Origin: an uncultured Fidelibacterota bacterium
GTDB lineage: Bacteria > Fidelibacterota > Marinisomatia > Marinisomatales > TCS55
Length of the DNA stretch: 64,000 nt
Assembly: GCA_913049685.1 (NCBI GenBank)
Contig: CAJWZD010000001.1
Span: forward strand, 1-64,000
Direction of reading: 5' to 3'
Under the pieces are notes generated by a model. The model was not told the DNA's origin, did no database searches, and saw only the letters and a list, made by a program, of their open reading frames with translations. How positions within the stretch are numbered: position 1 is the stretch's first letter; each line of letters begins with the position of its first letter. The position numbers and the translations under genes are program-made. Below are positions 17,012 through 56,389 of the stretch, one piece after another.

Positions 17012-19789
17012 ATGCTCAAAAGTTTTTTAACATATGCTACTTTATTCTATTGCACTTTTCTTCAAGCAGGGATTACAGGTAGTCTTAAAGGAAAGATAAT
17101 TGACAAAGAAACTGGAGATCCTTTAATAGGTTGTAATGTCATTATACTTGGCACTGAACTTGGGGCAGCAACAGATCTAGATGGTAATTATAAAATTATT
17201 AAAATACCCCCAGGAAATTATAAAATTCAGGTAATTATGATTGGATACGCCAAAACAAATATATCCAATGTGATTATTCAATCTGACTTAACAACTACAA
17301 TCAATGCCTCAATGGTTCAAAGTGTGATCTCAGCCGAGGAAGTTAATGTTGTTGCCACCAGACCTCTAATTACTAAAGACTTAACCGCGTCTACAGCTAT
17401 TATTAATTCAGATATGATCTCCAACTTACCCGTAACTGAGGTCTCCGAAATTCTTGAACTTCAAGCTGGTTTTGTTCAAGGACATTTAAGAGGTGGGCGC
17501 ACTGGTGAGGTTGCCTATTGGGTGGACGGTATTCCAATGACAGATGTCTTCGATGGTGGGACTATAGTTGATGTGAACACCAATGCAATAGCTGAAATGC
17601 AAGTAATATCAGGTGCATTTAACGCAGAATATGGTCAAGCCATGAGCGGTATCGTAAATATTGTTACAAAAGATGGATCTAAGTCTTTTAAAGGAAATGC
17701 GACTTTTTATAGCGGGGATTTTCTATCTGACAAAAAAAGTGTTTTCTTGAACGTAGACCAATTTGATCCAATTACCACCCGTAATTTTGAGATAAATGTT
17801 GAAGGTCCAATTTTTAGGGATAAACTATTTTACAATCTCACTCTTAGAGACATTTATTATCAAGGAGTCCATGAAGGTCAAAGACGTTTTAAACCAAATA
17901 ATATTTCTTATTTTGATCAAAATGATGATTTCAACCTACATCGATTGGATATTGCTGATGGAGATACGTTAAATCCTGGAAAAGGAGATGATACATTTGT
18001 TCCTATGGATTGGAATCACAAGACCTACACTCAGGGCAAGCTTATATACAGCATCTCTCCCTTGACAAAATTGAAATACACTATAATCAATGATCAAGTT
18101 GATTATCAAGACTACGATAGAATGTATCGCTATAATCCTGATGGAAATTTAAATCGGTTCAGAAATGGAATGACACATTTGCTTCAGCTAAACCATAGTT
18201 TTTCAAATAACACATTCATTGCTTTGGGTATTACCAATTTTAATAAATCATATAATCATATGACGTATGATAAGGAGGAATGGAATAAATATGTTCACCC
18301 AAAACTTTTAAATTCCCAGCCTTATAGTTTTCTAACTGGCGGCACAAATTTATCAGTGTTCTCACGGTCTACAGGTACTACGACTTTTAAATCAGATCTC
18401 ACTTCGCAATGGAATAAGCAAAATAAAATTAAAACTGGTTTTGAGATGCGGTTTCATCGTTTATACTATGATAATTACGCGTTGCGACCTTCAGATGAAA
18501 AAGCCAGCTTCAATGAGCTTGCTGATGACCCCTATTTGTTGAATCCTCAACGCTTTGCTGATTCAACCATTTATTCAAGCACTTATTCTTTTGAGCCATT
18601 TGAAATGAGCGCATACCTTCAAGACAAGATCGAATTAGATGAGCTAATTATAAACATAGGCTTTAGGGTAGATTATTTTGACCCAAATGGCAACACGCTG
18701 AATGACCCTTCTGACCCTTCGATCTATAATCCAATTAAGCCTCAAAACATTTATAGAGACAACAATGAAAATGGCGTATGGGATGCAGATGAGCCTTCTG
18801 TATCTTACCTTGAACGATCACAGTATTGGTATAAGAAGACTACGCCTAAATGGAAAATAAGTCCAAGATTTGGCGCATCATTCCCTTTCTCTCCAACCGG
18901 CGTTATACATTTTTCATATGGTCATTTCTTCCAGGTGCCCCGCTTTGAAATGTTGTACATGAATCCAGATTTCGATCTAAGTCAAGGTACTGGAAATATT
19001 GGTGTTGTTGGAAATGCAGATTTAAGACCGGAGAAAACAGTCCAGGGTGAGCTTGGACTGCAGCAGCAGATCACCAACAATATGGCTATTGATATAACAG
19101 CATACTTTAGAGATATTCGTGATTTAGCTGGTACACGGTCGGAAGAGATTTCTCTATTTGGAGGTTCTGCTTCATACAATAAACTTGAAAATTCTGATTT
19201 TGCATACGTTAGAGGTCTAGTGCTTTCCTTGCAAATGCTAGGGTACAAAGGATTTTCTGGTAACTTAGATTATACGTTTCAGATTGCCAAAGGGTCCGCC
19301 TCCGATCCTCAGCAAGCTAGGAACGCTATAGCGGGTGGCTCACTTCCAGAAATTCAAATGATACCATTGGATTGGGATCAAAGAAATACCGTCAATCTAT
19401 CTCTAGCTTATGATAAAAAAAGGTGGGGTGTTTCTGGTATTTATCAATTAGGATCTGGACTTCCATATACACCTTTAAGCACTGAGGATATTTCCTCTTT
19501 TGTTCAAAATTCTGGAAAAAAGCCATTTACTTGGAATGTGGATTTAAAAGGATATTTTCTGTTGCAAGATCAAATGAACTTATTCATAAAAGCTAACAAT
19601 GTTTTTGATGTTTTAAACCAATACACCGTTTATGATGACTCTGGTTCTGCTGATTATACTCGTTGGCAAAAGATTGCTGAAATGCAAAATACTGGTGAAC
19701 CTGTTAATTCTATATCTGATTGGTTTCAAAATGAGACTTTCTTTTCAAACCCACGAAGAGTTGAAATTGGAATTACGTATGCCTTTTAA
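17012..19789 (+). CDS. Trio 1 TonB-dependent receptor (SusC-like role)
   Basis: A 925-aa outer-membrane receptor: signal peptide (1-19), carboxypeptidase D regulatory-like domain (about 24-105; DLDGNYKIIKIPPGNYK), a TonB-box-like EEVNVVA, a plug domain (about 120-225; LRGGRTGEVAYWVDGIP, then FNAEYGQAMSGIVNIVTKDG) and a 22-strand-type barrel ending in the aromatic TYAF. Such receptors import oligosaccharides with TonB energy. The GH97 gene just upstream suggests maltooligosaccharide-like cargo (inference). No SusD gene follows; instead comes a giant CTD protein whose start overlaps this stop by 11 bases. Homologous to the receptors at 32018 and 53723. Confidence 0.92.
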   Translation: MLKSFLTYATLFYCTFLQAGITGSLKGKIIDKETGDPLIGCNVIILGTELGAATDLDGNYKIIKIPPGNYKIQVIMIGYAKTNISNVIIQSDLTTTINASMVQSVISAEEVNVVATRPLITKDLTASTAIINSDMISNLPVTEVSEILELQAGFVQGHLRGGRTGEVAYWVDGIPMTDVFDGGTIVDVNTNAIAEMQVISGAFNAEYGQAMSGIVNIVTKDGSKSFKGNATFYSGDFLSDKKSVFLNVDQFDPITTRNFEINVEGPIFRDKLFYNLTLRDIYYQGVHEGQRRFKPNNISYFDQNDDFNLHRLDIADGDTLNPGKGDDTFVPMDWNHKTYTQGKLIYSISPLTKLKYTIINDQVDYQDYDRMYRYNPDGNLNRFRNGMTHLLQLNHSFSNNTFIALGITNFNKSYNHMTYDKEEWNKYVHPKLLNSQPYSFLTGGTNLSVFSRSTGTTTFKSDLTSQWNKQNKIKTGFEMRFHRLYYDNYALRPSDEKASFNELADDPYLLNPQRFADSTIYSSTYSFEPFEMSAYLQDKIELDELIINIGFRVDYFDPNGNTLNDPSDPSIYNPIKPQNIYRDNNENGVWDADEPSVSYLERSQYWYKKTTPKWKISPRFGASFPFSPTGVIHFSYGHFFQVPRFEMLYMNPDFDLSQGTGNIGVVGNADLRPEKTVQGELGLQQQITNNMAIDITAYFRDIRDLAGTRSEEISLFGGSASYNKLENSDFAYVRGLVLSLQMLGYKGFSGNLDYTFQIAKGSASDPQQARNAIAGGSLPEIQMIPLDWDQRNTVNLSLAYDKKRWGVSGIYQLGSGLPYTPLSTEDISSFVQNSGKKPFTWNVDLKGYFLLQDQMNLFIKANNVFDVLNQYTVYDDSGSADYTRWQKIAEMQNTGEPVNSISDWFQNETFFSNPRRVEIGITYAF

Positions 19790-22700: not shown

Positions 22701-23696
22701 AATCCATATATGCAGCTGTCTGTTTGGAATGATGCAACGAAATTGCCTTTTGTAACAGAGCGAGAGGATTCAGATATCTTTGATGGTCTCACTATTGATT
22801 TTAACAACGATTGGTTTATTACTTCAGATGAAAATAACTCATACTGGTGGACAACTGAAGATGGAAGCAGTTGGCAAAAAAACGATGGTGAGTCGACCCA
22901 TTTTTTTATTGTTAGTGCAACGGATCTTGATGTCAATTTTGACGGTACAATCGACTTAAAAGCGATTCGTGTTCCGAATAAATATGGAGTGATATTTTCA
23001 GATCAGAAAGATTTTGGGCAATCATATGCTTCTCTAGAAAATTTCAATCCTGGAACAAAGACCAACTTTAAAATCATTAATCTTACAGATAATATTGATG
23101 TCCCCTTTTTCTTATTTGACTATCCTTTAGGTCCCACTGGAAAAATTAATGGTGGTGATTACATTTATTTTTATGATCAAGATTCTTCAGGTATTAATCG
23201 GTACACTTGGAACGTAACCTTTACAAATCGCCAGTCTCAAGGAACTTCAACAAATATCGAGTACGGTAGTGGAGATACTCTCTTCATTGATTTTTCAAAA
23301 CCATTTAGATCTAATGATAGCTTTGCGTTTAAGTCACCGCTCCCCAGCATAGAATCTCAAAAAGTGACATCAGAAATGAATGATATTAAAGTTGTTCCTA
23401 ATCCCTATGTTGTTGGCCATCGTTTTGAATCCCCTCTCCCGCCAGGGATAACTAGCGGCAGAGGAAGCCGAAAGGTAGAGTTTCAAAATCTGCCGTCAGA
23501 CGGGATGGTTCATATTTTCTCATCAAGAGGACAGCACATTAGAACATTAAATCATTCTGGAAATATGTTTAGTGGCACTATAGCTTGGGATCTTAAATCA
23601 AAAGAGAACCTTGATATTGCATTTGGAGTCTACTATTACATTGTTGAGTCTAAAATAGGCGGTAAGACATCAGGTAAACTGGCGATTATAAAATGA
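19779..23696 (+). CDS. Trio 1 giant CTD surface protein, family of unknown function
   Basis: A protein of 1,305 aa. I start it at ATG 19779 because MPFKLKHLTLILIISINVAQ is a good signal peptide, while the longer in-frame reading lies inside the TBDR gene. Visible parts: an N-terminal region with ESFFVMDD and GLGLEVKVRGMQW motifs; acidic Ca-binding-like repeats (DGIDNDGDYD, DGVDNDFDGLIDENY); the family signature EPNF-TD-ESD-IGLTSF; a fibronectin III-like domain (PTLTAVPGDGKVTLYWD) with GYKIYRATDPNF; and a C-terminal domain starting KVVPNPYVV and ending GKLAIIK. It is homologous along its length to the proteins at 34786 and 50276. A role as surface glycan-binding partner of the receptor is inference only. 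Confidence 0.85.
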   Translation: MPFKLKHLTLILIISINVAQESSGRQFRRTGIHNGNLVRTVFGNWGVIGQPSNKGPRGAWLNDNNGYIGDVSPMVGAEITTLDTSGNPVKFRSVVIAPANRPTSTGFEESPGGKSWGFEPQSGFFNQNQESVAISTNSTTWPSYWPNKLNDGNDPGWRGSWNGYFGKDIQNIQQESFFVMDDNNDEEFNYPQYNKWNVEFKPDSTNPTRNGLGLEVKVRGMQWQQFLAQDVLFWVYEVTNTSTVDYTNVVFGMLVGTYVGITGTDDRPQEYDDDWSFFDVQNDITYTGDYGNNVDRNPRWVGDVGMVGYAFLESPGNGYDGIDNDGDYDSAGDASAPLFQKSSFDSSLVQAGDQIILIDDKFNRTRYTVPDQDSVKVKTRGLTKTIFPGKTYLVEGNIVLDEKGKELTNENAFDGVDNDFDGLIDENYFLHYNQRRIEPDGTVLFDTINPKAYIDYITEYGMLNNLIDEKRDDGIDNDNDWNPLYDDLGADGVAETGDYGELDGIPTAGEPNFDQTDVDESDQIGLTSFNYFSPANLYPAREDEELWEQLKPGYFDVPSSISNGEPIAGEDGDFIYGAGYFPLRAGQTERFSVALVYGNDLKDLINNKKTVQDIYNSNYRFPPPPKKPTLTAVPGDGKVTLYWDRVAEESLDPVTKKKDFQGYKIYRATDPNFNDVRNITDANGLIQGYSTLQQFDKKDDISGYFYPSKNLFQDTKGYTYFLGDNTGLVHSYIDRDVQNGRTYYYALVAYDHGEEEKDIFPSENSKFISVLPTGEIITDQNTAYVIPSSTSAGYSLNDTIPLVHTGPGTGSIKVNVVDQKALTGHRYQVEFYDTSSDGIDNDMDWDILTDDIGSDGIAGSNDVDGSEGNGLPDNGEPNFDRLDNDEFMPVTTLYSVRNLEKITEIFVPNDTFTVQLKHKNIIEGSVEVKNSIGNTVSASDYIINYDLGRIKGSMSGSLGSDNHTIIFNYYPIFKNPYMQLSVWNDATKLPFVTEREDSDIFDGLTIDFNNDWFITSDENNSYWWTTEDGSSWQKNDGESTHFFIVSATDLDVNFDGTIDLKAIRVPNKYGVIFSDQKDFGQSYASLENFNPGTKTNFKIINLTDNIDVPFFLFDYPLGPTGKINGGDYIYFYDQDSSGINRYTWNVTFTNRQSQGTSTNIEYGSGDTLFIDFSKPFRSNDSFAFKSPLPSIESQKVTSEMNDIKVVPNPYVVGHRFESPLPPGITSGRGSRKVEFQNLPSDGMVHIFSSRGQHIRTLNHSGNMFSGTIAWDLKSKENLDIAFGVYYYIVESKIGGKTSGKLAIIK

Positions 23697-24688
23697 AACG
23701 GGCTCTTATTATGACCATCTTTACTGCCGCTGCGATGTGTCAATCCAAAGTAGGAAGTTCAGCAGCTTCTTTTTTAGGGGCTGGTGTTGGGTCTAGAGCG
23801 ATAGGAATGGGAGGTGCTTTTTCAGCGGTGGGCGGAGATGCTTCTGTACTATACTGGAATCCAGGTGCAATGTCAGAATTGAAACGATCTGAAACATTAA
23901 TTTCTAAAGCTAATTGGCTTGTAGAGAGCGACCTGAACTATTTAGCTTCCATTCTTAAGCTGTCAAAAGGGAAAAGCATAGGCCTGTACTTGTTGCAGCT
24001 GGATTACGGACAAGAAGAGATTACCACGCTTGATGATCAAAATGGTACCGGACAATTTTGGAGTGCAATGGACTATGTTCTTGGCCTATCGTATGGAAGC
24101 AAACTATCTAATCGTTTTTCTTTTGGTGGGACCGGTAAGTTTATTTCTCAAAGAATTCACCACACATCCGCAACATCTTTTGCTGTTGATTTGGGCTTAA
24201 TCTACAAAACGCAGTCTGACAAAGTTCGAATAGGGATGTCGATTTCTAATTTTGGTTCTGATATGACTATGGATGGCAAAGATCTTTATAAAAAAATTGA
24301 TATTGATCCCGATTATTCTGGACACAATGAATCCCTTGTGTCAAAACTTAAGACAGACCCATGGCCTTTACCGCTTTTCTTTAGAGCAGGAACATCGATT
24401 CAATTAATAAGTCTAAATAATGCAACAGGCTATCTAGCGCTTGATACCTTTATTCCAAGCGATGATGTAGAGATAATTAATGTTGGCTACGAACTGGTTT
24501 TGTTTGAAAAATCTCAAATTCAAATTGGGTATAGTGGAATAGGAAACCCTAACAGTGAAGAAGGGTTCACAATGGGAGGAGGAACCTCATTTTATGCCGG
24601 TGGATTTGATCTAAGGCTTGATTATTCGTTTAGATCATTCGGTCTTTTTGGAGATATTCATTATTTCTCCGTCGCTTTTTTGTATTAA
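23693..24688 (+). CDS. Trio 1 PorV-like outer membrane protein
   Basis: A 331-aa barrel of the PorV/PorQ family: signal peptide (1-16), then ASFLGAGVGSRAIGMGGAFSAVGGDASVLYWNPGA and later NFGSDMTMDG, PLPLFFRAGTS and GFTMGGGTSFYAGG, shared with the other trio members. PorV in Bacteroidetes binds the CTD of secreted proteins and hands them to the PorU sortase. Its start overlaps the stop of the giant CTD gene by 4 bases (ATGA), as in trios 2 and 3, so the two are made together. I infer that it may serve that one cargo. The type IX translocon genes themselves are not in this window. Confidence 0.85.
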   Translation: MKRALIMTIFTAAAMCQSKVGSSAASFLGAGVGSRAIGMGGAFSAVGGDASVLYWNPGAMSELKRSETLISKANWLVESDLNYLASILKLSKGKSIGLYLLQLDYGQEEITTLDDQNGTGQFWSAMDYVLGLSYGSKLSNRFSFGGTGKFISQRIHHTSATSFAVDLGLIYKTQSDKVRIGMSISNFGSDMTMDGKDLYKKIDIDPDYSGHNESLVSKLKTDPWPLPLFFRAGTSIQLISLNNATGYLALDTFIPSDDVEIINVGYELVLFEKSQIQIGYSGIGNPNSEEGFTMGGGTSFYAGGFDLRLDYSFRSFGLFGDIHYFSVAFLY

Positions 24689-24728
24689 AAGAGTTAAGAC
24701 ATTTTGTTTTTATTTTGGATATAAATTC

Positions 24729-24756: not shown

Positions 24757-24773
24757 AAATTTGTTTGATTATT

Positions 24774-24785
24774 AAAAGGAGAGAG
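24774..24785 (+). promoter_or_regulatory. Strong purine-rich ribosome binding site
   Basis: AAAAGGAGAGAG lies 3 bases before ATG 24789. Similar GAGAGAG leaders precede the CTD genes starting at 31790 and 59739 and suggest strong translation. Confidence 0.7.
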
Positions 24786-24788: not shown

Positions 24789-27536
24789 ATGAAAAAATCG
24801 ATATCGATATTTCTACTACTATTTGTTTCGTATCTACCCGCTCAAACCTACCAAGGAAACGTTCTTGAAAATTCAGGTTTTGACTGTGTAACAGACGACT
24901 GCAAGGCAAAATGGGAAGTATATCCTAGCGAGTATAGTAGTTTTGATTATGAAGAAGAAGGAGCTACAATGTACGGCTCCTCAAGAAAGTATCCATCCTA
25001 TTGGGGAAGCCATGGATTTAAGCTTTGGGGTAGGTATAATAATGAAGAAAATGAAAACAGCGTTTTTCAAACCTTCACAGATGTCCCTGCTGGAAAGCGC
25101 ATTATTGTTCACGGTATGGCAATGACATACAATGAGGACAGGATACGTGGGGAAAACAAAGCATTTCTATTCATCAAAACATATGATGAAAACTGGGGTA
25201 GCTATAATGGGTTCTTTTCCGATTCTATGGATGTGAATTCCCCTGCTGATGTATGGACTACACTGTTTACCTCAGCTCAGGTACCTGCTGGAACTAAATA
25301 CGTTCAAATTGGTATCGGATATTATCAAAAGAGCAACAACGATCACGGCGGTCTCTATTTTGATGATCTTCAAGCCTATATTGGTGATGTGATTGTGGAT
25401 ATCGCGGTTAACACTTCGCATATCAAAGACCTGACCCAAAGAAAGCGCAAAATGATGGTTGACCTTCGCGGAGGGTCTGTGGGTGAAGGTACAGGTGTTA
25501 TCGCAAATCCATCATGGGGTCCTGGAACTAATTTGAGACCAGCGACTTCTTTTCATTGGACTGCTGAAGACTCAGCAGATGAGGCTTTCAGTAAACATTT
25601 GGAACATGATCAATGGTATACGGCAATAGTTCTTGATAAAGGATTATCTTATGATTATAAGTTTGGCGGACACATTGCAAACCTCGATGGAACCGTATCC
25701 GGTTATTGGGAAAATGATCTACCCGGTGCTGACTATAAAGGTAATAATAGAAACCTTACCATCAGTGCAGATGGAAGTTCATCAACAGCTAGTGGAGCTT
25801 TCGGGCATGAACACGAAAGCGAAAGCAGCGATGAGTATGTAGTGGTATTGGACCATTTCCTTGGCAGAGGAACAGAGAATGACGCACCACCTTATACGGA
25901 TAACCCTGATTCAGTGGACGTATACTTTGTGGTAAATATGTCAAATAATCTTGATTTTGATCCCAAAACCCAAAAAGTCTATATGGCAGGAGATCTAGAA
26001 TCAGAGGTTACTGGTGGCAACGACTGGTCTCATGGTATCGTAATGACTGATATGGGAGATGGGTATTGGAGCTACCACTGGAGAGGTGCTTCATCTAACG
26101 AAACACCACTTACTCTAAATTATAAATTTACATTAGGAGACTGGAGCGGAACGCATGAGGATGGATTAACTGGTGAAGGTATTTCTGGTGGAAACAGACA
26201 AATTATCATTGATAATCATATGATCAGTGAAGAGGGAGATGTTACGGTCCCATGGGTTTGGTACAACAACAACGCACCGTCGCCATTTACCGCATCTTCA
26301 AAAGTTCCTTCCCTTACATTTAGAACAAATGTTGGTCAAGCAATTGCCAACAATGGCTGGAAAGATGGAGATTTATTAGTTGTAAAATGGGGCTACGGAA
26401 GAACTGCTGACAAAGTCTATGTTGATACTCTTATTGCTGGTGTTGGTGGTGATTATCAAAAAACGATTGCACCATCCGATAGTCTCCCTGTTGATGCAAC
26501 GTTAGGAATGTTTTATCAGTACTATCGTTCAAGCGGTGGTTCTGAGTCACGCGAAACCTTTTTTAATTTTGACACTACTTGGGCAGATGTTTCGCTTCAA
26601 GAGCGTAGATGGACACCAATTGTTGCAGGTGCTACGTCTACAGTAACGGACTATCTTCCTTCCAAGATCAGTGGTCGCAGATTGCCAATATTCAGAAATT
26701 CAAATAAGCTTGATGCTTCTGCAGCAGACAGCGATAGTTTACTTGTAACATGGACTGCTGACCTCAGACCAATCTATTATCAATTACTTTCGTTTGGAAG
26801 CGATGATGCTGATTCATTGGCTGGTATTCAGGGAGCAAGAACCTTATACTATAGTGATAGAGATAGTATATTAGACTGGGGCGTTTGGATGAATGGACCA
26901 GCCATAGGTGGATGGAATGCTCGTGGAGCATGGGGCGCAGGACTACGCACAGATAGCTTAGCTAAAATGCATGATGATGGAACGCATGGAGATGCAACTG
27001 CGGGTGACTCTATATATACTGTTCAGTTCAAATATCAAAAGAACTCAACAGATATTGGTATGGAATTCAAGTTTGGTGTTAATGCAGAAGATAACGAATC
27101 AGGGTTTGGATTAAACCATATCGAAAATATCGATGTCAACAGCCCTACAGTTGCTTCACAATTCGGATCAATCAATCCTAACCGCTACAACGCATGGAAC
27201 TTTGACACGGGTAGACCAGGATTGCTTGCCATTGAAGAACTAGCGGGAATTCCAGATGAATTCAAGTTGTCAAATAATTATCCAAATCCATTCAACCCAA
27301 CAACAAGCATTGAGTTCAATATTCCAATTGCATCTCAAGTAACACTGACCATTTATAATATAACTGGACAGGAGATTGCTAAGATACATAACGACTTTGC
27401 AGAAGTTGGAAAATACAAAGCAACATGGAATGGTATGGACAGGAATGGTATTAAAGCTCCTAGTGGAGTTTATTTCTATGAACTTAGAGCAGAAAATCAT
27501 TTTCAAAAAGTAAAGAAAATGACCTTACTGAAATAA
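24789..27536 (+). CDS. Multidomain putative carbohydrate-binding surface protein with CTD
   Basis: A 915-aa secreted protein with no catalytic domain that I recognise. Signal peptide (1-18); a jelly-roll module (about 22-200; LENSGFD, LYFDDLQAYIGD) related to the two modules of the protein at 28992; a region about 200-355 of unknown fold; a starch-binding/SusE-like beta region (about 360-490; VYMAGDLESEV, YWSYHWRG, LNYKFTLGDWSG); further beta-rich parts; and a type IX-like CTD (about 825-915; NNYPNPFNPTTSIEF, GVYFYELRAE). It follows trio 1 by 100 bp and is closed by a strong terminator, so it may be the glucan-capturing surface protein of this locus (inference). Confidence 0.8.
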   Translation: MKKSISIFLLLFVSYLPAQTYQGNVLENSGFDCVTDDCKAKWEVYPSEYSSFDYEEEGATMYGSSRKYPSYWGSHGFKLWGRYNNEENENSVFQTFTDVPAGKRIIVHGMAMTYNEDRIRGENKAFLFIKTYDENWGSYNGFFSDSMDVNSPADVWTTLFTSAQVPAGTKYVQIGIGYYQKSNNDHGGLYFDDLQAYIGDVIVDIAVNTSHIKDLTQRKRKMMVDLRGGSVGEGTGVIANPSWGPGTNLRPATSFHWTAEDSADEAFSKHLEHDQWYTAIVLDKGLSYDYKFGGHIANLDGTVSGYWENDLPGADYKGNNRNLTISADGSSSTASGAFGHEHESESSDEYVVVLDHFLGRGTENDAPPYTDNPDSVDVYFVVNMSNNLDFDPKTQKVYMAGDLESEVTGGNDWSHGIVMTDMGDGYWSYHWRGASSNETPLTLNYKFTLGDWSGTHEDGLTGEGISGGNRQIIIDNHMISEEGDVTVPWVWYNNNAPSPFTASSKVPSLTFRTNVGQAIANNGWKDGDLLVVKWGYGRTADKVYVDTLIAGVGGDYQKTIAPSDSLPVDATLGMFYQYYRSSGGSESRETFFNFDTTWADVSLQERRWTPIVAGATSTVTDYLPSKISGRRLPIFRNSNKLDASAADSDSLLVTWTADLRPIYYQLLSFGSDDADSLAGIQGARTLYYSDRDSILDWGVWMNGPAIGGWNARGAWGAGLRTDSLAKMHDDGTHGDATAGDSIYTVQFKYQKNSTDIGMEFKFGVNAEDNESGFGLNHIENIDVNSPTVASQFGSINPNRYNAWNFDTGRPGLLAIEELAGIPDEFKLSNNYPNPFNPTTSIEFNIPIASQVTLTIYNITGQEIAKIHNDFAEVGKYKATWNGMDRNGIKAPSGVYFYELRAENHFQKVKKMTLLK

Positions 27537-27561: not shown

Positions 27562-27590
27562 AAAAAAGGCCTGATCTTCAGGCCTTTTTT
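27562..27590. terminator. Bidirectional rho-independent terminator
   Basis: A perfect 13-bp stem with A-run, core GGCCTGA/TCAGGCC, 3-nt loop TCT and T-run. It lies between two convergent genes and its A/T flanks let it work on both strands. The last two bases lie in the stop codon of the amidase gene. Confidence 0.92.
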
Positions 27591-31881: not shown

Positions 31882-32017
31882 CAAAAATTGATATAAAATT
31901 TTTAACTCACAAAAATAGTAAAAATATTATTAATATTGAATGTTCCAATCAAAAAAATATAAGTTTTGATAGGCAATATTTCAATCTTATGAAAAAGACT
32001 ATTTTTATATCATTTTG

Positions 32018-47739: not shown

Positions 47740-47758
47740 GTTAGTTAGTTTCTTTATT

Positions 47759-49246
47759 TTAATCCATATCAAGCTTAGAGCCATAGTTAAGGTAACTATC
47801 ATCTGTATAAGACGGAAAGTTTGGCACAACAACAGGGTATGGAACATTGTTTTGGGTTACAAACATATCAACTTTTGAAATTTTAATTTTCTCAAACAAA
47901 TCTGTATTTATAAAAATACTATTATCATATTCATCCTGTAATTTATCAATAATTGGCTTCATTTTAATATGACGATTATCACTAGTTGCACTTTGATCAA
48001 ATAAAAGGGAGGATTGATAAGCAAGAAAACTATCCTTCCAAATGCTGGCACTTTGGGTAACTTCAAATGACTTATCCAATGACATACTATAAGCTTTTTC
48101 TGTTAAAAATTTATCTTGAATAAAATCAATAATAGCTAGCCTGAATTGTTCAGAAAATTCAGCAGCGTTCATTTTTTTCTTTCTGAAAACTAGGGGATGA
48201 GACATTATTTGTTTTTCAAAATCTCTAATTTTCCATTCTTTACCGTTCAAGCTAAAAAGTGGAAGGTTAGAAAAATCATCACTAACAGGTTTTATATCTT
48301 CAAGCGTTAAGAATTCTCCACTATTGAAGAGTGCGTTAGAAATAGCCGACTCTTTCTCCTCTTTTGATCTAAAATATCTCTCACTTATTGCATCAGCATA
48401 AGGAACTAGAACTTCAAGGTTAAATTTAATTTCTTGACCCTTCATTACTTCAGCGATGAATTTTTTGTATAACTCAATACCCTTTCTTTCTTTAAGGGTA
48501 TTTATAACGTCTGTGCTGCGCTCTTGGATTGCCTTATCCGTCATTGCCATTTGATCTGTCCAGCCATTGATTTTCGCGATAACATAGGATCCATCATCCA
48601 TCATTAAGGGTCCAATTATTTGATTTTTTGAAACGGGTTGGTTGAATAATATATCATCTATAATAGGATGATTTGGGTCTTGCCATTTAACAGAGCGAGT
48701 AGGAATGTTATCGTCAAAATTTGAGGTATAAATATCTTCAAAAGGGATATTTGCTTTCAGCGCGCTATTTATGGAATCTAAAAAAGCTCCGCTAGGAAAC
48801 GAAAAGTGGCTAATATCATATACTCTTCCAGCCATTTTAAAATAATGTGTTTTTTCTTTATCATAAATGACCGATTTAGAATATCCTTCTTTGAAATACA
48901 AAAGTTGTCTCATTGATTGTTCTTTACGTCCCTTTAGAAACGCTGCAGCACCAACGTTAATTGTCTCAAGCCCAGATTTTTCAATTTCTAAAGCTAATAG
49001 TTTTTCTGCGATAAGATTGTTCAAAATGATCTTTTTATGCTGATACAAATCACCCTTACAGTAGATTGGTCGTATAGTATACTCTGCGCGTTGAAGAAAA
49101 TCCTTAGATGTAATTATCCGATCTCCTACTTTTGCCAAAATATCATTTATAGGTTGTTGCGCATCATCATTTGTGCAAGCTGAAATAAGAAATATAAATA
49201 AAAAGAAGCGTTTAAGCGGCAAGGGAGAGAAGTTAAAATCCAACAC
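47759..49246 (-). CDS. SurA/PpiC-like lipoprotein, putative periplasmic chaperone
   Basis: A 495-aa protein with lipobox ISAC (Cys24). Residues about 35-110 resemble the SurA N-terminal segment (ILAKVGDRIITSKDFLQRAE, then LNNLIAEKLLALEIEKSGL). Residues about 130-230 look like a degenerate parvulin domain (YDISHFSF, ANIPFEDIYTSNFDD, QIIGPLMMDDGSYVIAKINGW), and a second N-domain-like helix region follows (about 310-400). SurA-type proteins escort outer-membrane barrels through the periplasm. It overlaps the PorV-like stop by 14 bases and sits between trio 3 and the glucanases, so it may be a dedicated helper for their export or insertion (inference). Isomerase activity is uncertain. Confidence 0.72.
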   Translation of the reverse strand: MLDFNFSPLPLKRFFLFIFLISACTNDDAQQPINDILAKVGDRIITSKDFLQRAEYTIRPIYCKGDLYQHKKIILNNLIAEKLLALEIEKSGLETINVGAAAFLKGRKEQSMRQLLYFKEGYSKSVIYDKEKTHYFKMAGRVYDISHFSFPSGAFLDSINSALKANIPFEDIYTSNFDDNIPTRSVKWQDPNHPIIDDILFNQPVSKNQIIGPLMMDDGSYVIAKINGWTDQMAMTDKAIQERSTDVINTLKERKGIELYKKFIAEVMKGQEIKFNLEVLVPYADAISERYFRSKEEKESAISNALFNSGEFLTLEDIKPVSDDFSNLPLFSLNGKEWKIRDFEKQIMSHPLVFRKKKMNAAEFSEQFRLAIIDFIQDKFLTEKAYSMSLDKSFEVTQSASIWKDSFLAYQSSLLFDQSATSDNRHIKMKPIIDKLQDEYDNSIFINTDLFEKIKISKVDMFVTQNNVPYPVVVPNFPSYTDDSYLNYGSKLDMD

Positions 49247-50279
49247 TAATAGTGTAAGAACTTAAGTCGCCTAAAAGACCAGCAGTTCGCCTAGAATAGT
49301 CTAACTGGACAACTTGATTATTCATCAAATTTATTTTTAATCCTCCACCAAAAGTAAGACCATATTCGGAATCAGTCATAAACAGAGACTTGTAGCCTGA
49401 CCTAAGATACAAACTACCTTGTCCCGCCATTCTAAGTTCATACTGAGCACCAACATTAACGAACTCAGAATTATTATTTGGGTGAACAGCGTCAATTGCA
49501 AGAATCAAACGATGTAAATCTGTATAGACTGGTTTTATACCAATCCCAATTCTAAACAATAAAGGAAGCTCCCAACCTTGAGGTCTGAACTGCCCAGGAA
49601 CGTCAGCAAAATTTCCATCTTCATAAGGTGCAATATCTATAGGGTTCAATAAATCAATTCCATCATATTTCATTCGGGTACCATAATTTGAAATACTCAT
49701 GCCTATGCGCATACCATCTTCTTTTTTGTCTGTTGGTGAGAAAAATTCAGTACTAACTATCGCTCCGACATCAAGCGCGAAAGCACTTGCAGTTGAATGC
49801 CATATTTTAGATGAAATAACTTTAGCTGTTGCTCCAAAAGAAAACCATTTAACAATTTTCCTTGAATACGTTATGCCAGCGCTATATTCGTTTGCAGAAA
49901 AATTTTCACCAGTGCCTTCTTGCTGGGTCATGGATGTTACTTCCATATCACCGTATCCCATATGCGTTAGACTTAAAGCAAAAGTTCCTACTCTATTTAC
50001 ATGAATAGTTGAGCCGACGTACATCATATTAATGTCCAAGACCCATGGCTGAATCATAAAGGCATTTTCATTTCTTTGGATAAATGCAACCGCAGCAGGG
50101 TTCCAATAAGCAGCTGTTGGACCTTCAGCAAATGTAACTCCAGCATCTCCCATAGCAGTAGTACCGCTTCCTGCACCAATCTCCAAAAAATTTGCCGCAG
50201 TAGATCCATAGCGGTTAATGGTTTGAGAAAAACCCATCGTCGTTACAATTGAAAGAGTCAGTAAAATTATTCTGATCAT
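49233..50279 (-). CDS. Trio 3 PorV-like outer membrane protein
   Basis: A 348-aa PorV/PorQ-type barrel: signal peptide (1-18), FLEIGAGSGTTAMGDAGVTFAEGPTAAYWNPAAVA, then SNYGTRMKYDG, ELPLLFRIGIG, AVDAVHPNNNSEFVN and GLTFGGGLKI, all shared with the other trio members. Its start lies in an ATGA overlap with the giant CTD gene and its end overlaps the SurA-like start by 14 bases. In this run it would be made together with surface glucanases that carry CTDs. Confidence 0.85.
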   Translation of the reverse strand: MIRIILLTLSIVTTMGFSQTINRYGSTAANFLEIGAGSGTTAMGDAGVTFAEGPTAAYWNPAAVAFIQRNENAFMIQPWVLDINMMYVGSTIHVNRVGTFALSLTHMGYGDMEVTSMTQQEGTGENFSANEYSAGITYSRKIVKWFSFGATAKVISSKIWHSTASAFALDVGAIVSTEFFSPTDKKEDGMRIGMSISNYGTRMKYDGIDLLNPIDIAPYEDGNFADVPGQFRPQGWELPLLFRIGIGIKPVYTDLHRLILAIDAVHPNNNSEFVNVGAQYELRMAGQGSLYLRSGYKSLFMTDSEYGLTFGGGLKINLMNNQVVQLDYSRRTAGLLGDLSSYTISVGF

Positions 50280-53200
50280 TTAATTACCGCAAACTTTCCA
50301 AGTTTTTTGTCACCTGTAACAATTGATTCTACATGATACAAATACATTCCAGCGGCTATTTCTAGCCCTTCTCTGGTCAGCATATCCCAATGTATCGTGC
50401 CATCTTGAGGTGAATTATTTACTGAAATAACATCAACTAAGATTCCGCTAACGGTAAAAATTTTAATTGTTGCCTCTGAGGGTATATTGGTAAACAATAA
50501 GCGTCTTCGCTGGTTTAAAAATTCATTAGAAACTGAGGGTTCCATAACATTAGTTGCAACATACGGATTAGGGACTACGCGTATATCCTTCATCGTATTT
50601 TTTAAAGAGTCTGTATTTATCTCATCATACGAGTTAACGGTAAATGAAAAACTATCTGTCTTCCAAAAAGGCCTAAGAAACTTTACCCGAAACACATCAT
50701 CGCTTCTTGGAAAAGTAGCTTCAGAAGCTAAAGAAAAATCAATAACAAATACGGTACCACCCCATTTTTTATCGCTGCTTGTTCCACCAACAATGATTCT
50801 GTCTTCGAATTTATCAAATTGACCATTTTTATTTAAATCATCAACCACCATATCCATAATTACGTAAGAACCGTCATCGTTTTGTATAGTATTGTTTTTT
50901 ACATAAAAACTAAAATTTTGACCGATTAAGATTTGGTTACTTGCGATTCTAGAATCCGTTTCGTCTCTAATATTTAATTTTGAAGTTGCTACCGTTGTGT
51001 AGCGATCGGGATTCGAAGTAAAAATAATATCATAGTCCCATGGCATGTACATTGACTCTCTTGGGGTTGGAAAAATTCGCATTATTCCATTACCTTTCAC
51101 CCAGCCTGAATTAGCATAATCATAAGAGGGTTCAGTAAATGGCTGATCAACGCTTAACTGAATTCCGTCAAATACATCCGTCTGAACTATAATATCAGGG
51201 TTTAAAGTCCATACATTTAAAGAATCAAGATATAGTAAATTACTTCCTACAAATTTTTGAGGATTTTCAGTATATATTATCTCGGATGATGCTGTGTTCA
51301 CAACACTTATCTCATTGGTGGTATATAATAATCCATGCTCATACGAAGGCAGTTGAGCTACTGTATCTATATCAAATTTTACTGTATATTGATTTTTTGG
51401 AACTATACTCGCTTGAGCTAAGATAGCCGGCTCAATCATACCCCCACCGCTTAGGTTGTCTTCATTGATCGTTAAATCTGGTGATTGATATCCCGCTGCA
51501 GGTTTAGTAGGTGTAACAATAGCAACATTTTTCCCGATGGATCTAACTTCCTCAGCTTCATTAAGTTCTACTACAACATTATTTTCAGATGGGGCAATTC
51601 CAGGTCCAATATTTGGAGCGCCATAATCATACGCCACTAAACCATAATAGTATGTACGTCCATTGATTACGGTGTTATCAACAAATACATGCGATATTCC
51701 GTTATCAGTTCCCAGGTTATATGCCGCGCCATTTATTAGTCCAAAATCTGTAAAGCCAAGTTTTCCATCTTTTAGATCGCATTGAAAAATAGGCTTCATA
51801 AAAGTTGGTGTTCCATAACCATCCGTAATTACCTCAGCATCGGAAAAATATTTATCTGTTGCCCTAAATAGTTTATATCCCTCAAAGTCATTTACATTAC
51901 CTAAGAACGGGTCACGGGTTTTTGTATCTGATATGTTGTCCCAGGTTAGAATAACTTTTCCATCAGCAGGTGTAGCGGTAAGCGTAGGCATTTTTGGTGG
52001 TTGAGCAAACCTGTAGTCTTTCTCATAGATTACCTGAACAATCTTTTTTAGCTGATAAAGGGAGGGGGCAGTATGACTAGATGAATTTAGTCCTTCAAGT
52101 GGGTCAAAAGAGTGGAGTTCCGCCATTGAAATTCTTTCAGATCTTCCACGGTATAGCGGGAAAGGGCCTGATGCAAATATTTCAATTAAATTTGAAATAT
52201 TTTCAATGTATTCTTCTAGTACATTTTCTCCAATCAAATTCCACATAGCTTGATCATTTTTAAACCACCAGGTTTGATTGGATTGTGAGTGACTTGGAAC
52301 AGGAAATAGACGAAATGAAGTCAGTCCAATCATATCGGACTCTGAAACATCCGTTTCTGCAAAGTTTGGTTCGCATCCAACACCCTCAACAAAATCAGGT
52401 CGATGATTGCCTTCACCTTGATCAGGTCCAGTATAATTGAGCTCTCCTGGCGCAACACCATCTAGCCCAATGTCGTCTCCAAAAAATTCAGACTCAGAAT
52501 AAATTCCATCATTATTTAAATCCTCACCATCTTCCCAATCTTGATCTTCATCAGCATCCCAGTGCTCTTTCAGATCGTCTTCTGTTAAACGGTAAAATGA
52601 TAGAAAATCCTGCAGGTTGTGAATTCCATCTGTGGGTCCAATTTTATTGACAGCCACGTTATCTCTCTTTTCGTTCAACAGACCATCTTTATCATTATCT
52701 ATATTATCGTAGGGAACACCGGGACTCTCTAAATAGGCAAACCCCATTGTTCCAGTAGGAAGACCACCTTTACCTATTCCATTGATATCCCATGAATAGG
52801 ACATATCTAAATCTGTGTCAAAATATGCTAATTCATCACTTCCATCATCACCTATAGCGTTATCAACCCAATATCCAAAGGCAACTTCTGTTAAGTCGTA
52901 GTCAGATATGTTTGCAATATTATATTCCCAAAAAATCGCATCTCGAGCTTGAGGGTTGTTCCATTGAAAACCGCGCGCCTCAACACGCAATCCGAGCCCA
53001 CCCCATGGATTTCCAGAACCAATTGTTACCTCTTCATTAATATCGCCAATCGCTTTTCCTTTTCTCGGATAGTATCGGACTCGATCTGGTAATTCAAGGT
53101 ATTCCTGATCCTGTGCATCGTTAACTACAAAATATGTTTCCATATCGGCATAAATGACTCCACGGCCGAATCTACCATCCCATTCTCCAGGCCACTTTGT

Positions 53201-53722
53201 TTCACGACCGACTGATGGCCAACCATTCGAAGGCCATGAACTAGGCCTATTACTCATTGCTGGATACTCACCAGTTTCATTAAAATATCCGAACGCGGGG
53301 TAAAATCCGTATTCAAATGTACCTGCAGGATTCACATCCATCTCCTCGCGATAACTGGTTTGGAGATAATACAGCTCATGAAGACCATCGCCGCTTTCAA
53401 TTGTTGCTTTATCAGTTACAACTGTGCTATCTATTCGAGTAGTTGGGTCATCTTTAATATAAACTTTTGCCCCCACCAATAAACCAATTCCATCAACCAT
53501 TTTTAGACCGTTTAAGTTATTGGGCCACCGAGATACATTTGATTTTGGCCAATCAGATAGTTCAGTGGTATTGCGAAAATATAGAAATACTCTGTTTCCT
53601 GTCATGTAGCCTTCGCGCTCTGCAGCAATATCCCCTGCTGGATCTTCAGGTCCTTCATACTTTTTACTTTGAGCAAGAACTAAAGGAAGGGTGATTAAGA
53701 ATACATATAAATATTTGGACAT
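50276..53722 (-). CDS. Trio 3 giant CTD surface protein, family of unknown function
   Basis: A 1,148-aa protein homologous to those at 19779 and 34786. Signal peptide (1-17); METYFVVND and GLGLRVEARGFQW motifs (about 190-255); acidic Ca-binding-like repeats (DNIDNDKDGLLNEK, WDADEDQDWEDGEDLNNDGIY); signature EPNFAETD-ESDMIGLTSF; FASGPFPLYRGRSERIS; a fibronectin III-like region (PTLTATPADGKVILTWD) with GYKLFRATDKYF; and a CTD beginning RVVPNPYVA, ending GKFAVIK. It begins directly after the receptor stop with no gap. Its place at the head of a beta-glucanase run makes glucan binding at the receptor a sensible but untested idea. Confidence 0.85.
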   Translation of the reverse strand: MSKYLYVFLITLPLVLAQSKKYEGPEDPAGDIAAEREGYMTGNRVFLYFRNTTELSDWPKSNVSRWPNNLNGLKMVDGIGLLVGAKVYIKDDPTTRIDSTVVTDKATIESGDGLHELYYLQTSYREEMDVNPAGTFEYGFYPAFGYFNETGEYPAMSNRPSSWPSNGWPSVGRETKWPGEWDGRFGRGVIYADMETYFVVNDAQDQEYLELPDRVRYYPRKGKAIGDINEEVTIGSGNPWGGLGLRVEARGFQWNNPQARDAIFWEYNIANISDYDLTEVAFGYWVDNAIGDDGSDELAYFDTDLDMSYSWDINGIGKGGLPTGTMGFAYLESPGVPYDNIDNDKDGLLNEKRDNVAVNKIGPTDGIHNLQDFLSFYRLTEDDLKEHWDADEDQDWEDGEDLNNDGIYSESEFFGDDIGLDGVAPGELNYTGPDQGEGNHRPDFVEGVGCEPNFAETDVSESDMIGLTSFRLFPVPSHSQSNQTWWFKNDQAMWNLIGENVLEEYIENISNLIEIFASGPFPLYRGRSERISMAELHSFDPLEGLNSSSHTAPSLYQLKKIVQVIYEKDYRFAQPPKMPTLTATPADGKVILTWDNISDTKTRDPFLGNVNDFEGYKLFRATDKYFSDAEVITDGYGTPTFMKPIFQCDLKDGKLGFTDFGLINGAAYNLGTDNGISHVFVDNTVINGRTYYYGLVAYDYGAPNIGPGIAPSENNVVVELNEAEEVRSIGKNVAIVTPTKPAAGYQSPDLTINEDNLSGGGMIEPAILAQASIVPKNQYTVKFDIDTVAQLPSYEHGLLYTTNEISVVNTASSEIIYTENPQKFVGSNLLYLDSLNVWTLNPDIIVQTDVFDGIQLSVDQPFTEPSYDYANSGWVKGNGIMRIFPTPRESMYMPWDYDIIFTSNPDRYTTVATSKLNIRDETDSRIASNQILIGQNFSFYVKNNTIQNDDGSYVIMDMVVDDLNKNGQFDKFEDRIIVGGTSSDKKWGGTVFVIDFSLASEATFPRSDDVFRVKFLRPFWKTDSFSFTVNSYDEINTDSLKNTMKDIRVVPNPYVATNVMEPSVSNEFLNQRRRLLFTNIPSEATIKIFTVSGILVDVISVNNSPQDGTIHWDMLTREGLEIAAGMYLYHVESIVTGDKKLGKFAVIK

Positions 53723-56389
53723 CTAAAAATTAACCCCCATAGATAGCTTGACCATGCGTGGGGTTGAAAACATTGATGGATTTTGCACTCTGTCTTCATA
53801 CTCATTAAAATCACTTCTGTGTCCTGCTAAATCCGTTTCTTTAATAACGGCCGTGTACGCTCTACCAGTGCCATCATTTACCGAATTCTCATTTAATCTA
53901 TCAAAGAGATTGTAAACTGCTAAGCGCAAATTAACTTTGTAATCTTTGTATACGGGCAGATTATAATATGCCACAAGGTCGGCATGATATTTCGCAGGGC
54001 GATAATCATTGTTTGGATAAAGATTAATTCTTGAAAGCCTACTCTCTTCAATGGGGGAGAATGTATATGGTGATCCAGAGTTATAGTACCCTGTAACAGA
54101 TGCTCCATAATTTGCGGTATTGTAAGCAACAGTGGCATTAAATGTGTGTCTTTGATCCCAGCTCATTGGTATGAGCCTATTAACCGGATCCATGCTAGCT
54201 CCTGAGCGTGAGAAAGTTTGCTGCGGGTTATCTGCATTGCCTCTGGTGTATTGTAATGTATAATTTAACCATGCAGAAATGGGTCCAGTTGCCAGATCAA
54301 ATTTTATTTCAAGCCCTCTAGCATTTCCATAATCTTTGTTGCTGTATAATCCATATTCAATTTGATTGTATGTGCTAAAAATTCTGGTACTTAATAAATT
54401 ATAAATATCGCGGTAGAATAATGAGACCTCTAAGCCAGCACCTGGAAAGAGCTGTTGCCATAAGCCAATCTCATAGGTTACCGTCTTTTCGGCTTTTAAT
54501 TCGGCATTGCCCATGACCGTTGAGTAGTCATTCGGAGCAATTAAAAACGAATGATTTTGAAAAAGAGAATACATTGGAGGCATTTGAAAAAAGTGACCAT
54601 AGCTAAAATGGAGAACTGCGGCGTCCCCAAGCTGGTAGGCTAGACCAAATCTTGGACTTATCTGAGTTTGGGCTTTTGCTTTTGGGTAGCTTGAGGTCAT
54701 GCTATCCGGAAGCGACAACTGGTTTGCTGGATTTCGCCGATCCGATGGAACAGGGGAATTCGGATTAAAGTTATCGTACCTTAAACCAATATTAATGACC
54801 ATTTCATCAAATTCCATTTTGTCCTGAATAAAGGCAGACATTTCGATAGGATCAACCTTGTAGACGTCAGCATATAAGGTTGAATCACCCAATATGTTAG
54901 GCTCGTATAAGTCTGCTTCTTCTGCAGTACCAAAATATTTATTTCGAATCTCATGCCAAGCATTATCGATTTTGTAGTTGGTAAAATTAAGACCGGTTTT
55001 AATGTTATGATTTTTATTTACAATCCAGTTTAGGTCAAATTTTGCATTTGAACTATTCACAGTTCGTTCGTCATGATATTTTTGTTGACCACCAGTGAAA
55101 AAGCCTGGACCAAAGTTTTCAAGATATCTATCATGCACATAATTACTATCGAGAGGGTCTTTATACAAGTATCCACCCGAATAGTTTTTTGTGGTAGAAA
55201 GTTTTAAGTCATAAAATAAATTTTTTGATAGGAGATGATTCCATTGAAAAGAAAAGAAATCGGTTTTGCCATGCCCAGCGGCCATACCATCCGGATTATA
55301 TTTAAATCCGTGGTCGTATCCATATCCCTCATCAAGATCGGTGGAATAAAGCGTAGAGAATCTAACGCCGTCAATTGCTTGAAAGGAAAGTTTGCCAAGA
55401 ATACTGCTTCCAGACCACCTATTCATACTTACGTAACTAGAATCTCCGGTATTTTGGGTAAACCATAATAGGGGGTTGTCGCTGTAGTAATTGCTTATGT
55501 CTGTCACATTGAATCTGCGAATTCCATTTAAATGGTTTCTGTTGTTTTGATCTCGAACGTTAAAAAAGAAGAATACCCTATCTTTTAGAACAGGTCCACT
55601 TAATTGAAATTTATAATCTTGATTTCTGTTGAAAATAAACTTGTCTAATCCTATGAATATATTGGAATTACCTGTGATATATTCACTAAATCCAGTAGAG
55701 AACGAACCGCTAAATTTATTAGAACCATCTTTCGTAACGGCGTTTACAACCCCGCTCATAGCATTTCCGTATTCCGCGTTAAATGTTCCGGTTATTACCT
55801 CGAGATCCTGGATAACATCTGGCTCAATACTAAGCATAGAAGATGAACCGCCAAAAACTTCATCGATCTGTATTCCATCAACAAGATAGGTAACCTCAGT
55901 TCTTCTTCCACCTCTAAAGTGACCTTCTACAACACCCGCCTGCATACCAACAATCGCACCAAGATCTTCAACGGCAAGCTTTTCTATCTGATCTGTTGAT
56001 ATATTTTTAATAGTCGACGTTTGATCTTTCTTTGTCGTAATGGCATCAACTTCAACAACTACGGTTTCACCTTGAATAACGGTTGGCGATAGAGATGCAT
56101 CAATCGTAGTAGTTCTATTAACAGAAACTCTTACATTTTCCAAAACAAGCTGTTTGTAACCTATCATATCAACAACGAGTGTATACAGTCCAGGTTTAAT
56201 GTTCACAATAGAGTAATAGCCTTCAACATCAGTTGCTGCTCCGAGATTGGTATCTCTAACAATTACATTTGCAGCAATTAAAGGGTCATTAGTGTCAGCG
56301 TCTATTATGCTACCAGAAATTTTACCCGTAGTTTGAGACTGAAGCGATATTACAAAAAATAGACTTAAGAAGAGTAATTTAGATTTCAT
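53723..56389 (-). CDS. Trio 3 TonB-dependent receptor
   Basis: An 888-aa receptor: signal peptide (1-19), carboxypeptidase regulatory-like domain (about 22-105; DVEGYYSIVNIKPGLYT), TonB-box-like ETVVVEV, plug (about 120-225; FRGGRRTEVTYLVDGIQ, FNAEYGNAMSGVVNAVTKDG) and a barrel ending KLSMGVNF. It heads the leftward ten-gene run with three beta-glucanases, so it probably imports beta-gluco-oligosaccharides (inference from context). The upstream gap (56390-56478) holds the terminator of the previous gene, so its promoter must lie in the short space after that hairpin or transcription reads through. Confidence 0.92.
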   Translation of the reverse strand: MKSKLLFLSLFFVISLQSQTTGKISGSIIDADTNDPLIAANVIVRDTNLGAATDVEGYYSIVNIKPGLYTLVVDMIGYKQLVLENVRVSVNRTTTIDASLSPTVIQGETVVVEVDAITTKKDQTSTIKNISTDQIEKLAVEDLGAIVGMQAGVVEGHFRGGRRTEVTYLVDGIQIDEVFGGSSSMLSIEPDVIQDLEVITGTFNAEYGNAMSGVVNAVTKDGSNKFSGSFSTGFSEYITGNSNIFIGLDKFIFNRNQDYKFQLSGPVLKDRVFFFFNVRDQNNRNHLNGIRRFNVTDISNYYSDNPLLWFTQNTGDSSYVSMNRWSGSSILGKLSFQAIDGVRFSTLYSTDLDEGYGYDHGFKYNPDGMAAGHGKTDFFSFQWNHLLSKNLFYDLKLSTTKNYSGGYLYKDPLDSNYVHDRYLENFGPGFFTGGQQKYHDERTVNSSNAKFDLNWIVNKNHNIKTGLNFTNYKIDNAWHEIRNKYFGTAEEADLYEPNILGDSTLYADVYKVDPIEMSAFIQDKMEFDEMVINIGLRYDNFNPNSPVPSDRRNPANQLSLPDSMTSSYPKAKAQTQISPRFGLAYQLGDAAVLHFSYGHFFQMPPMYSLFQNHSFLIAPNDYSTVMGNAELKAEKTVTYEIGLWQQLFPGAGLEVSLFYRDIYNLLSTRIFSTYNQIEYGLYSNKDYGNARGLEIKFDLATGPISAWLNYTLQYTRGNADNPQQTFSRSGASMDPVNRLIPMSWDQRHTFNATVAYNTANYGASVTGYYNSGSPYTFSPIEESRLSRINLYPNNDYRPAKYHADLVAYYNLPVYKDYKVNLRLAVYNLFDRLNENSVNDGTGRAYTAVIKETDLAGHRSDFNEYEDRVQNPSMFSTPRMVKLSMGVNF

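Follow-up and report, generated by a model that had tools for sequence, protein, structure and literature searches.

In the SusC/SusD (RagA/RagB) systems, which transport glycans and peptides, the gene for a TonB-dependent receptor (TBDR) is directly followed by the gene for a putative surface partner, in loci that contain glycoside hydrolases. SusD is a helical lipoprotein, the Sus locus contains members of GH97 and GH13, and annotation of polysaccharide utilization loci (PULs) relies on SusC/SusD pairs. The BtuB/BtuG and XusA/XusB systems of Bacteroides likewise combine a TBDR with a surface partner, one that is not a SusD. Here we describe a related arrangement, which we call the cassette: a TBDR gene, a gene for a very long secreted-type protein (the giant) and a gene for an outer-membrane barrel of the PorV family. 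It occurs three times in a 64,000-nucleotide stretch of DNA (the window) from an uncultured Fidelibacterota bacterium (assembly GCA_913049685.1, contig CAJWZD010000001.1, positions 1 to 64,000).

BtuG is a beta-propeller lipoprotein, and lipoprotein-capped TBDRs are seemingly exclusive to Bacteroidetes (PMC10404256). In the type IX secretion system (T9SS), the PorV shuttle recognizes all type A C-terminal domains, which have no dedicated shuttles; for type B cargo of F. johnsoniae, a PorP/SprF barrel gene, on which secretion of the cargo depends, lies directly downstream (PMC12618676). PorP/SprF-type barrels anchor type B cargo (PMC9143113). In a xylan locus, three hypothetical proteins come after a TBDR, and a sorting domain is present in two of them, 1071 and 1073 (PMC6987092). 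The available part of PMC10994853 held no mention of TonB, SusC, PorV homolog or FadL.

The closest match in gene order is a figure of the Rhodothermus marinus alginate locus, in which a TonB receptor, a T9SS type A protein and a PorV/PorQ family protein are drawn in that order beside alginate lyases (PMC9530828). The middle gene is 2,181 nt, and we liken it to the giant by annotation and order. The accessible part of that article discusses no role for the triple, and beyond its drawing we found no interpretation of the TBDR - giant - PorV order in the accessible parts of the literature searched. A first-pass annotation of the window, made from its letters, had regarded the composition as undescribed; as far as the literature searched goes, this holds for its role but not for the order. 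Because the order had been drawn before, we treat the cassette as a variant of the lidded-TBDR kind.

The cassette differs from each of these systems. In contrast to SusD, the giant is 977-1569 aa long (longest frames, 89 triples), has no lipobox and is mostly beta in one model; the cassette also adds a third, PorV-family gene, and the window TBDRs score far under the SusC cut-off. Unlike BtuG, the giant has no lipobox; its C-terminal domain is T9SS-like, and its partner is of the PorV family. As in SprB/SprF, the barrel gene is directly downstream of the cargo gene, but the barrel belongs to the PorV family rather than PorP/SprF, and the unit includes a TBDR gene. We show that the three genes are conserved as a unit, that the unit has its own PorV-family gene and that each cassette type has its own neighbors. 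We suggest that the unit is probably a module for nutrient uptake. The giant, exported by the T9SS, would be the surface partner of the TBDR, and the PorV-like barrel would be the giant's own shuttle or anchor.

Three cassettes in the window

Open reading frames (ORFs) and their translations place three cassettes between positions 17012 and 56389, each ordered TBDR - giant - PorV-like. Cassette 1 (forward strand) consists of a 925-aa TBDR (17012..19789) with matches to CarbopepD_reg_2 (5e-19), Plug (1e-6) and the PF00593 barrel (2e-25), a 1305-aa giant (19779..23696; its longest frame starts at 19632) and a 331-aa barrel (23693..24688). Cassette 2 (forward strand) consists of a 922-aa TBDR (32018..34786; in-frame TTG at 32015) with matches to CarbopepD_reg_2 (3e-21) and Plug (1e-10), a 1135-aa giant (34786..38193) and a 341-aa barrel (38190..39215). 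Cassette 3 is on the reverse strand, with an 888-aa TBDR (53723..56389; PF00593 2e-29, Plug 6e-8), a 1148-aa giant (50276..53722) and a 348-aa barrel (49233..50279).

The TBDR and giant genes overlap by 11 bases in cassette 1 and by 1 base in cassette 2, and they abut (0-base overlap) in cassette 3. At the giant/PorV junction, all three cassettes have the 4-base overlap ATGA. These values, and the coordinates, lengths and gene order, agree with the first-pass annotation, as does the grouping of the giants in one family: the other two are 39 and 33% identical to the 1135-aa giant. The ATGA overlap was constant in the window but did not generalize: over the window and the other loci together, it was present at 32/77 junctions if the longest PorV frame was used and at 44/77 if an internal start was allowed. 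We therefore rejected the exact 4-base overlap as a hallmark of the unit.

The three cassette types lie close together in the window, and in several related genomes two of them share a contig (L140-L147). This could be described as a partly syntenic array of putative uptake units.

The triple is conserved in many phyla

We fetched stretches from other genomes with patterns from the window giants and kept 79 named loci out of 265 confirmed stretches. Their records are labeled Marinimicrobia, KSB1, Calditrichota, Ignavibacteria, Kryptonia, WOR-3, Stahlbacteria, Cloacimonetes, Bacteroidetes or plain "bacterium". Flanking genes were counted for the 92 giants in the window and these loci with TBDR, giant and PorV family models that had been built up from window seeds with the ORFs of those loci in which they were later counted. 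An upstream flank was scored as visible if it had at least 600 bases.

We found that a TBDR precedes 81 of the 83 giants with a visible upstream flank and that a PorV-family gene follows all 77 giants with a visible downstream flank. All 68 giants (66 sources) with both flanks visible are in full triples. Excluding the window, the count is 65/65, indicating that the arrangement in the window is not due to chance. The wide co-occurrence anticipated by the first-pass annotation was borne out, and the giants do not occur mostly apart from TBDR and PorV genes. Two observations are independent of our own models: NCBIfam PorV matches directly after giants in relatives (e.g., G034:C144, G003:C7 and G022:C52), and the database annotation of R. 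marinus, which shows the cassette. Natural gene fusions, which would have served as evidence of contact, were absent from the 3466 ORFs compared.

The arrangement extends to more distant giants. Among 16 loci hand-picked from giant matches in further relatives, 15 had a TBDR directly upstream, the exception being L133. For this set plus locus L120 (20 giants, 17 loci), the counts per giant were 15/19 for the TBDR and 15/18 for PorV. In three of these loci (L130, L131 and L132) the operon is longer, and a single TBDR of about 1150 aa is accompanied by two giants. The order in L130 (2476-13180) is TBDR - giant - PorV - shorter giant - PorV, so that each giant has its own PorV gene.

In a tree of 60 giants, eight named phyla were intermixed and the three window giants were far apart; the cassette 3 giant was on a long, unsure branch. 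Within the phylum, giant matches with an E-value of 1e-40 or lower turned up in 104 of 120 sampled genomes. At most six candidates were scored per genome, so that "no match" is weaker than absence. Eight of the 16 genomes without a match are 0.8-1.0 Mb in size and come from a single genus within the same order (G038, G064, G072, G097, G118, G126, G130 and G137). Loss by streamlining is possible in these eight.

The giant and PorV genes are coupled, and the three genes descend together

Ordinary T9SS cargo is not arranged in this way. A PorV-family gene directly follows 111 of 114 giants, compared with 1 of 138 ordinary T9SS-tailed proteins in the same stretches, and none of 125 ordinary T9SS-tailed proteins is preceded by a TBDR. 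The tails of the giants are also distinct. All giant tails (117/117) scored better with a giant-tail model and all ordinary cargo (145/145) with an ordinary-tail model, a split that is partly circular because the models were trained on subsets of the proteins then scored. Based on the PorV adjacency and the tail-model split, we rejected the notion that the giants are generic T9SS cargo placed there by accident. The gene pairing fits the suggestion in the first-pass annotation that each barrel serves its own cargo; the shuttle function itself would follow by analogy with known barrels.

Distances among the three proteins were strongly correlated. For 89 distinct full triples, Mantel r was 0.89 for TBDR-giant, 0.83 for giant-PorV and 0.91 for TBDR-PorV, and none of 1000 permutations was as high (best 0.17-0.23); Mantel and Fisher values ignore shared ancestry, and shared species history inflates the Mantel values. 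In each window cassette, all three genes are nearest to those of one foreign cassette (L143, L043 and L140 for cassettes 1, 2 and 3, respectively), despite the distance between the window cassettes themselves. Among named relatives, L043 is nearest to cassette 2; it is from a Marinimicrobia (now Fidelibacterota) metagenome-assembled genome, and its giant is 91% identical. Of the triples assigned to a window type, 44/45 agree across all three genes (the exception is L119), and the nearest window cassette is the same for all genes in 63/89 triples. The nearest neighbor is shared by only 59 to 64 of the 89 triples, depending on the gene pair. Sequence comparison indicates that the TBDR, giant and PorV-like genes descend together.

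These results bear on a different arrangement of the same parts. The giant and PorV could be a self-contained surface-display pair, such as an adhesin or polymer-binding scaffold, with a TBDR that merely imports the same nutrient; the common operon would then be due to a common substrate. The giant/PorV link is indeed the tightest (111/114), a second giant and PorV follow the single TBDR in L130, and the giant in L117 has no upstream TBDR. However, a TBDR directly precedes 81/83 giants and 0/125 ordinary T9SS cargos, and the TBDR-giant distances correlate at r 0.89, both of which indicate linkage, not contact. We consider the display pair a serious but rather unlikely alternative to the uptake module.

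The receptor is TonB-dependent but scores below the SusC cut-off, and the barrel is a PorV-family protein

All three window TBDRs matched CarbopepD_reg_2 and Plug in Pfam, and two matched the PF00593 barrel. The CarbopepD_reg-like domain is N-terminal, and its combination with a plug is a trait shared with SusCD-like transporters. None passed the SusC/RagA model TIGR04056 (63.1 and 51.3 bits, third unlisted; cut-off 368). An AlphaFold2 model of the cassette 3 TBDR (pLDDT 86.4) had fold matches to siderophore, haem, PQQ and B12 receptors. Among the matches listed were the lidded BtuB3G3 and XusA-XusB and a Bacteroides B12 transporter; no SusC was among the 50 listed.

The window barrels passed the PorV family model NF033709 with 162, 210 and 202 bits for cassettes 1, 2 and 3 (cut-off 90). 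They did not pass the model for the housekeeping PorV equivalog, NF033710 (57.0, 76.9 and 99.5 bits; cut-off 250), and were below the cut-offs of the NCBIfam PorQ and PorV2 models. The PorP/SprF family was absent from their Pfam matches up to E 0.1. In a sequence comparison, the cassette 2 barrel matched the solved T9SS PorV 6h3i_F at 5e-8.

PorV belongs to the FadL superfamily, and the window barrels had weak Toluene_X/FadL matches below the Pfam cut-off. Both would be expected if the barrel were a FadL-type diffusion channel for products rather than a shuttle or anchor. The scores far above the PorV-family cut-off, the relation to 6h3i_F and the near-exclusive coupling to the C-terminal class of the giant argue against such a channel, which we regard as quite improbable.

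The giant is a predicted secreted protein with its own type of tail

No Pfam or NCBIfam family was above its cut-off in any of the three window giants, and the SusD family was not among their Pfam matches up to E 0.1. All 89 giants of the full triples have a Sec-type hydrophobic N-terminus, as judged by hydropathy rather than by a dedicated signal-peptide program. None of the 89 has a lipobox-like motif within the first 45 or the first 120 residues; the SusD-like protein of the host genome does carry one. The T9SS tail model TIGR04183 gave 14.7 and 15.5 bits in two window giants (cut-off 23), with the third, the 1305-aa giant, unlisted, and FlgD_ig gave 15.9 bits in one (cut-off 27). The motif PNPY is present within the last 130 residues of 85/89 giants.

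We modeled one giant, the 1135-aa protein of cassette 2, with AlphaFold2 (mean pLDDT 85.7, alignment of 86 sequences). The model has a signal, a helix at residues 45-65 and then mostly strands with few helices, pointing to a fold other than the helical fold of SusD. In a Foldseek search, SusD was not among the 50 matches listed. The best match by E-value was PorZ (TM 0.09), a protein that contains propellers.

Chains of GH94, GH116 and GH149 were also matched, with probability up to 1.00 and TM 0.12-0.18 on the query. These matches would suit a giant that is an enzyme, a relative of hydrolases or phosphorylases, rather than a binding partner. However, the low TM values indicate that only part of the fold corresponds. 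GH94, GH116 and GH149 enzymes carry a helical catalytic barrel, which seems to be missing from a model with so few helices, and there is no Pfam catalytic family above cut-off. An enzyme is thus highly improbable. The likeness may instead reflect a carbohydrate-binding super-sandwich without the catalytic barrel.

We rejected the possibility that the cassette is an ordinary SusCD system with a divergent SusD, given that there is no SusD family, no lipobox, a mostly beta model and a TBDR far under the SusC cut-off. The proposal in the first-pass annotation that the giant takes the SusD role fits the context of the locus, and the giant may well have that role; it would do so without a SusD-like fold (in the one model) and without a lipobox.

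Each cassette type keeps its own neighbors

The counts of neighboring genes cover relatives whose visible flank is 4 kb or longer (6 relatives of cassette 1, 24 of cassette 2 and 8 of cassette 3). Each window cassette type keeps its own neighbors elsewhere: GH97 and GH13, amidase and FG-GAP, or GH16 and GH5.

Cassette 1 is preceded by 6 bases by a gene for a GH97 alpha-glucosidase-type hydrolase (14888..17005, forward strand), found in 3/6 relatives and 0/67 others. Divergent from the cassette is a GH13 alpha-amylase with CBM48 and a T9SS C-terminal domain (11891..14758, reverse strand; 3/6 relatives). Downstream is a 915-aa protein (24789..27536, forward strand; 6/6 relatives, 1/67 others) in which only a T9SS tail was detected and which is possibly a surface glycan binder. 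Cassette 1 shares GH97 and GH13 with the Sus locus. These conserved neighbors hint at an alpha-glucan as the substrate.

Two genes on the reverse strand precede cassette 2. One encodes a T9SS-tailed N-acetylmuramoyl-L-alanine amidase (Amidase_2; 27589..28887), found in 15/24 cassette 2 relatives and 1/49 others. The other, divergent from the cassette, encodes a T9SS-tailed FG-GAP repeat protein (28992..31790; 19/24 relatives, 11/49 others). The amidase gene of the single other locus, L143, adjoins a cassette 1 together with the FG-GAP gene, an arrangement also seen in the window. On the R. marinus plasmid pRMAR01 the row is FG-GAP - TBDR - giant - PorV-family - Amidase_2 - beta-lactamase-like hydrolase, with a giant that is 49% identical. 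Type I-U CRISPR genes lie within a few kilobases of this cassette (L160, 3506-21411). Based on the amidase and FG-GAP neighbors and the R. marinus row, peptidoglycan fragments are our best guess for the most likely substrate of cassette 2. Fidelibacter multiformis, a cultured member of the phylum, uses the muropeptides of other bacteria as a source of energy and carbon and to make its own wall (PMC11652737); the word TonB does not occur in the available text of that article.

Cassette 3 is followed directly after its PorV gene by a gene for a SurA_N-like protein, a putative periplasmic chaperone (47759..49246, reverse strand, like all genes described here for cassette 3; PF13623 21 bits, below the cut-off of 28.5). 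This gene is in the same place in 8/8 cassette 3 relatives and 0/65 others. It lies within the cassette 3 operon, as if the locus supplied its own outer-membrane chaperone. Beyond it are genes for a GH16 protein with malectin and a T9SS tail (45910..47847) and a GH16 hydrolase (45074..45913), each with homologs in 7/8 relatives, and for a GH5 cellulase-family hydrolase with CBM35 and a T9SS tail (43117..45105; 4/8 relatives). Upstream of the cassette is a T9SS-tailed lamin-tail and CBM9 protein (56479..59739; 8/8 relatives, 6/65 others). A beta-glucan of the laminarin kind is hinted at by these neighbors. Between cassettes 2 and 3 is a T9SS-tailed CotH-kinase protein with a lamin-tail domain (40048-43101, reverse strand).

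Of 58 next-downstream genes, mostly from cassettes outside the three types of the window, 25 were scanned singly. Eight encode glycoside hydrolases (GH30, GH3, two GH9, GH2, two GH16 and GH94), one a NamZ muramidase and one a ROK-family protein; the remaining 15 products comprise T9SS-tailed, transport and housekeeping proteins as well as proteins with another assignment or no match. In alignments of nearest neighbors, a T9SS tail was found in 36/50 upstream and 15/55 downstream proteins, FG-GAP repeats in 27/50 upstream proteins and Amidase_2 in 7/55 downstream proteins.

A proposed role in energized import

We propose that the TBDR, identified by its family, would be the energized gate in the outer membrane. 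The giant would leave the cytoplasm by its Sec-type signal and cross the outer membrane by the T9SS, using its own class of C-terminal domain. By analogy with SusD or BtuG, whose place it would take, it could then bind substrate on the surface as the partner of the TBDR. The PorV-family barrel may be the dedicated shuttle of the giant or its permanent anchor, much as PorP/SprF serves type B cargo. The three products may act as one surface machine in which the giant catches the substrate. The first-pass annotation had also considered an export role for the whole unit, in favor of which we found nothing.

Several observations weigh against the uptake module. The C-terminal domain of the giants is below the NCBIfam T9SS tail cut-off, and the fold of the cassette 3 TBDR is closest, among the matches listed, to siderophore and B12 receptors. 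At L090 another PorV gene is upstream in place of a TBDR, and at L117 there is no TBDR in 7.7 kb of visible upstream sequence; in both, the contig ends downstream. Neither partner is recognizable at L133. At L131 and L132, no PorV gene was found within the 0.6 and 1.4 kb that can be seen beyond the second, shorter giant. The amidase is not within 6 kb in 9/24 cassette 2 relatives, and 17 of the 25 scanned downstream genes are outside the counted glycoside hydrolase families, including genes for glutamine synthetase, a helicase and MurB.

If the uptake module is correct, it joins T9SS cargo delivery with TonB-dependent import, and the cassette might serve as a marker of substrate specificity in uncultured marine bacteria. 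It would also be a non-lipoprotein answer to TBDR capping outside Bacteroidetes. PUL annotation based on SusC/SusD would miss such cassettes, though giants are found in 104/120 genomes of the phylum. R. marinus has an amidase-linked cassette, and so the proposal can be tested in a cultured organism. We raise, tentatively, the broader possibility that the cassette is a further architecture for energized import and a general core of nutrient uptake in many FCB phyla outside the classical Bacteroidia, with separate forms for alpha-glucan, beta-glucan and peptidoglycan fragments. If so, the form for peptidoglycan fragments could explain how Fidelibacterota take up the muropeptides that they scavenge.

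The host genome

The host genome (1.63 Mb, 52 contigs, 79% complete; G000) encodes SprA and PorU homologs above cut-off, indicating that the T9SS required by the uptake module is present. It also has one SusC/SusD pair, on contig C17: a SusC with 548.5 bits on TIGR04056 and, 12 bases after this SusC-type TBDR, a protein with a PF07980 match of 9e-8. The label "SusCD-independent", given to the cassettes by the first-pass annotation, therefore fits the cassette but not the organism. SusD genes are few in the phylum: PF07980 (SusD) was present in 24 of the 41 genomes searched, with one to three in each. There are 16 plug-domain matches in the host genome, three of which are in the window cassettes. 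Nine PorV-family matches were found, and the four above cut-off are the three in the window and one on contig C13. At the end of that contig (L120, 5703-8045), a giant-like C-terminal fragment is followed by the PorV-family gene; this is probably a fourth unit cut by the contig end.

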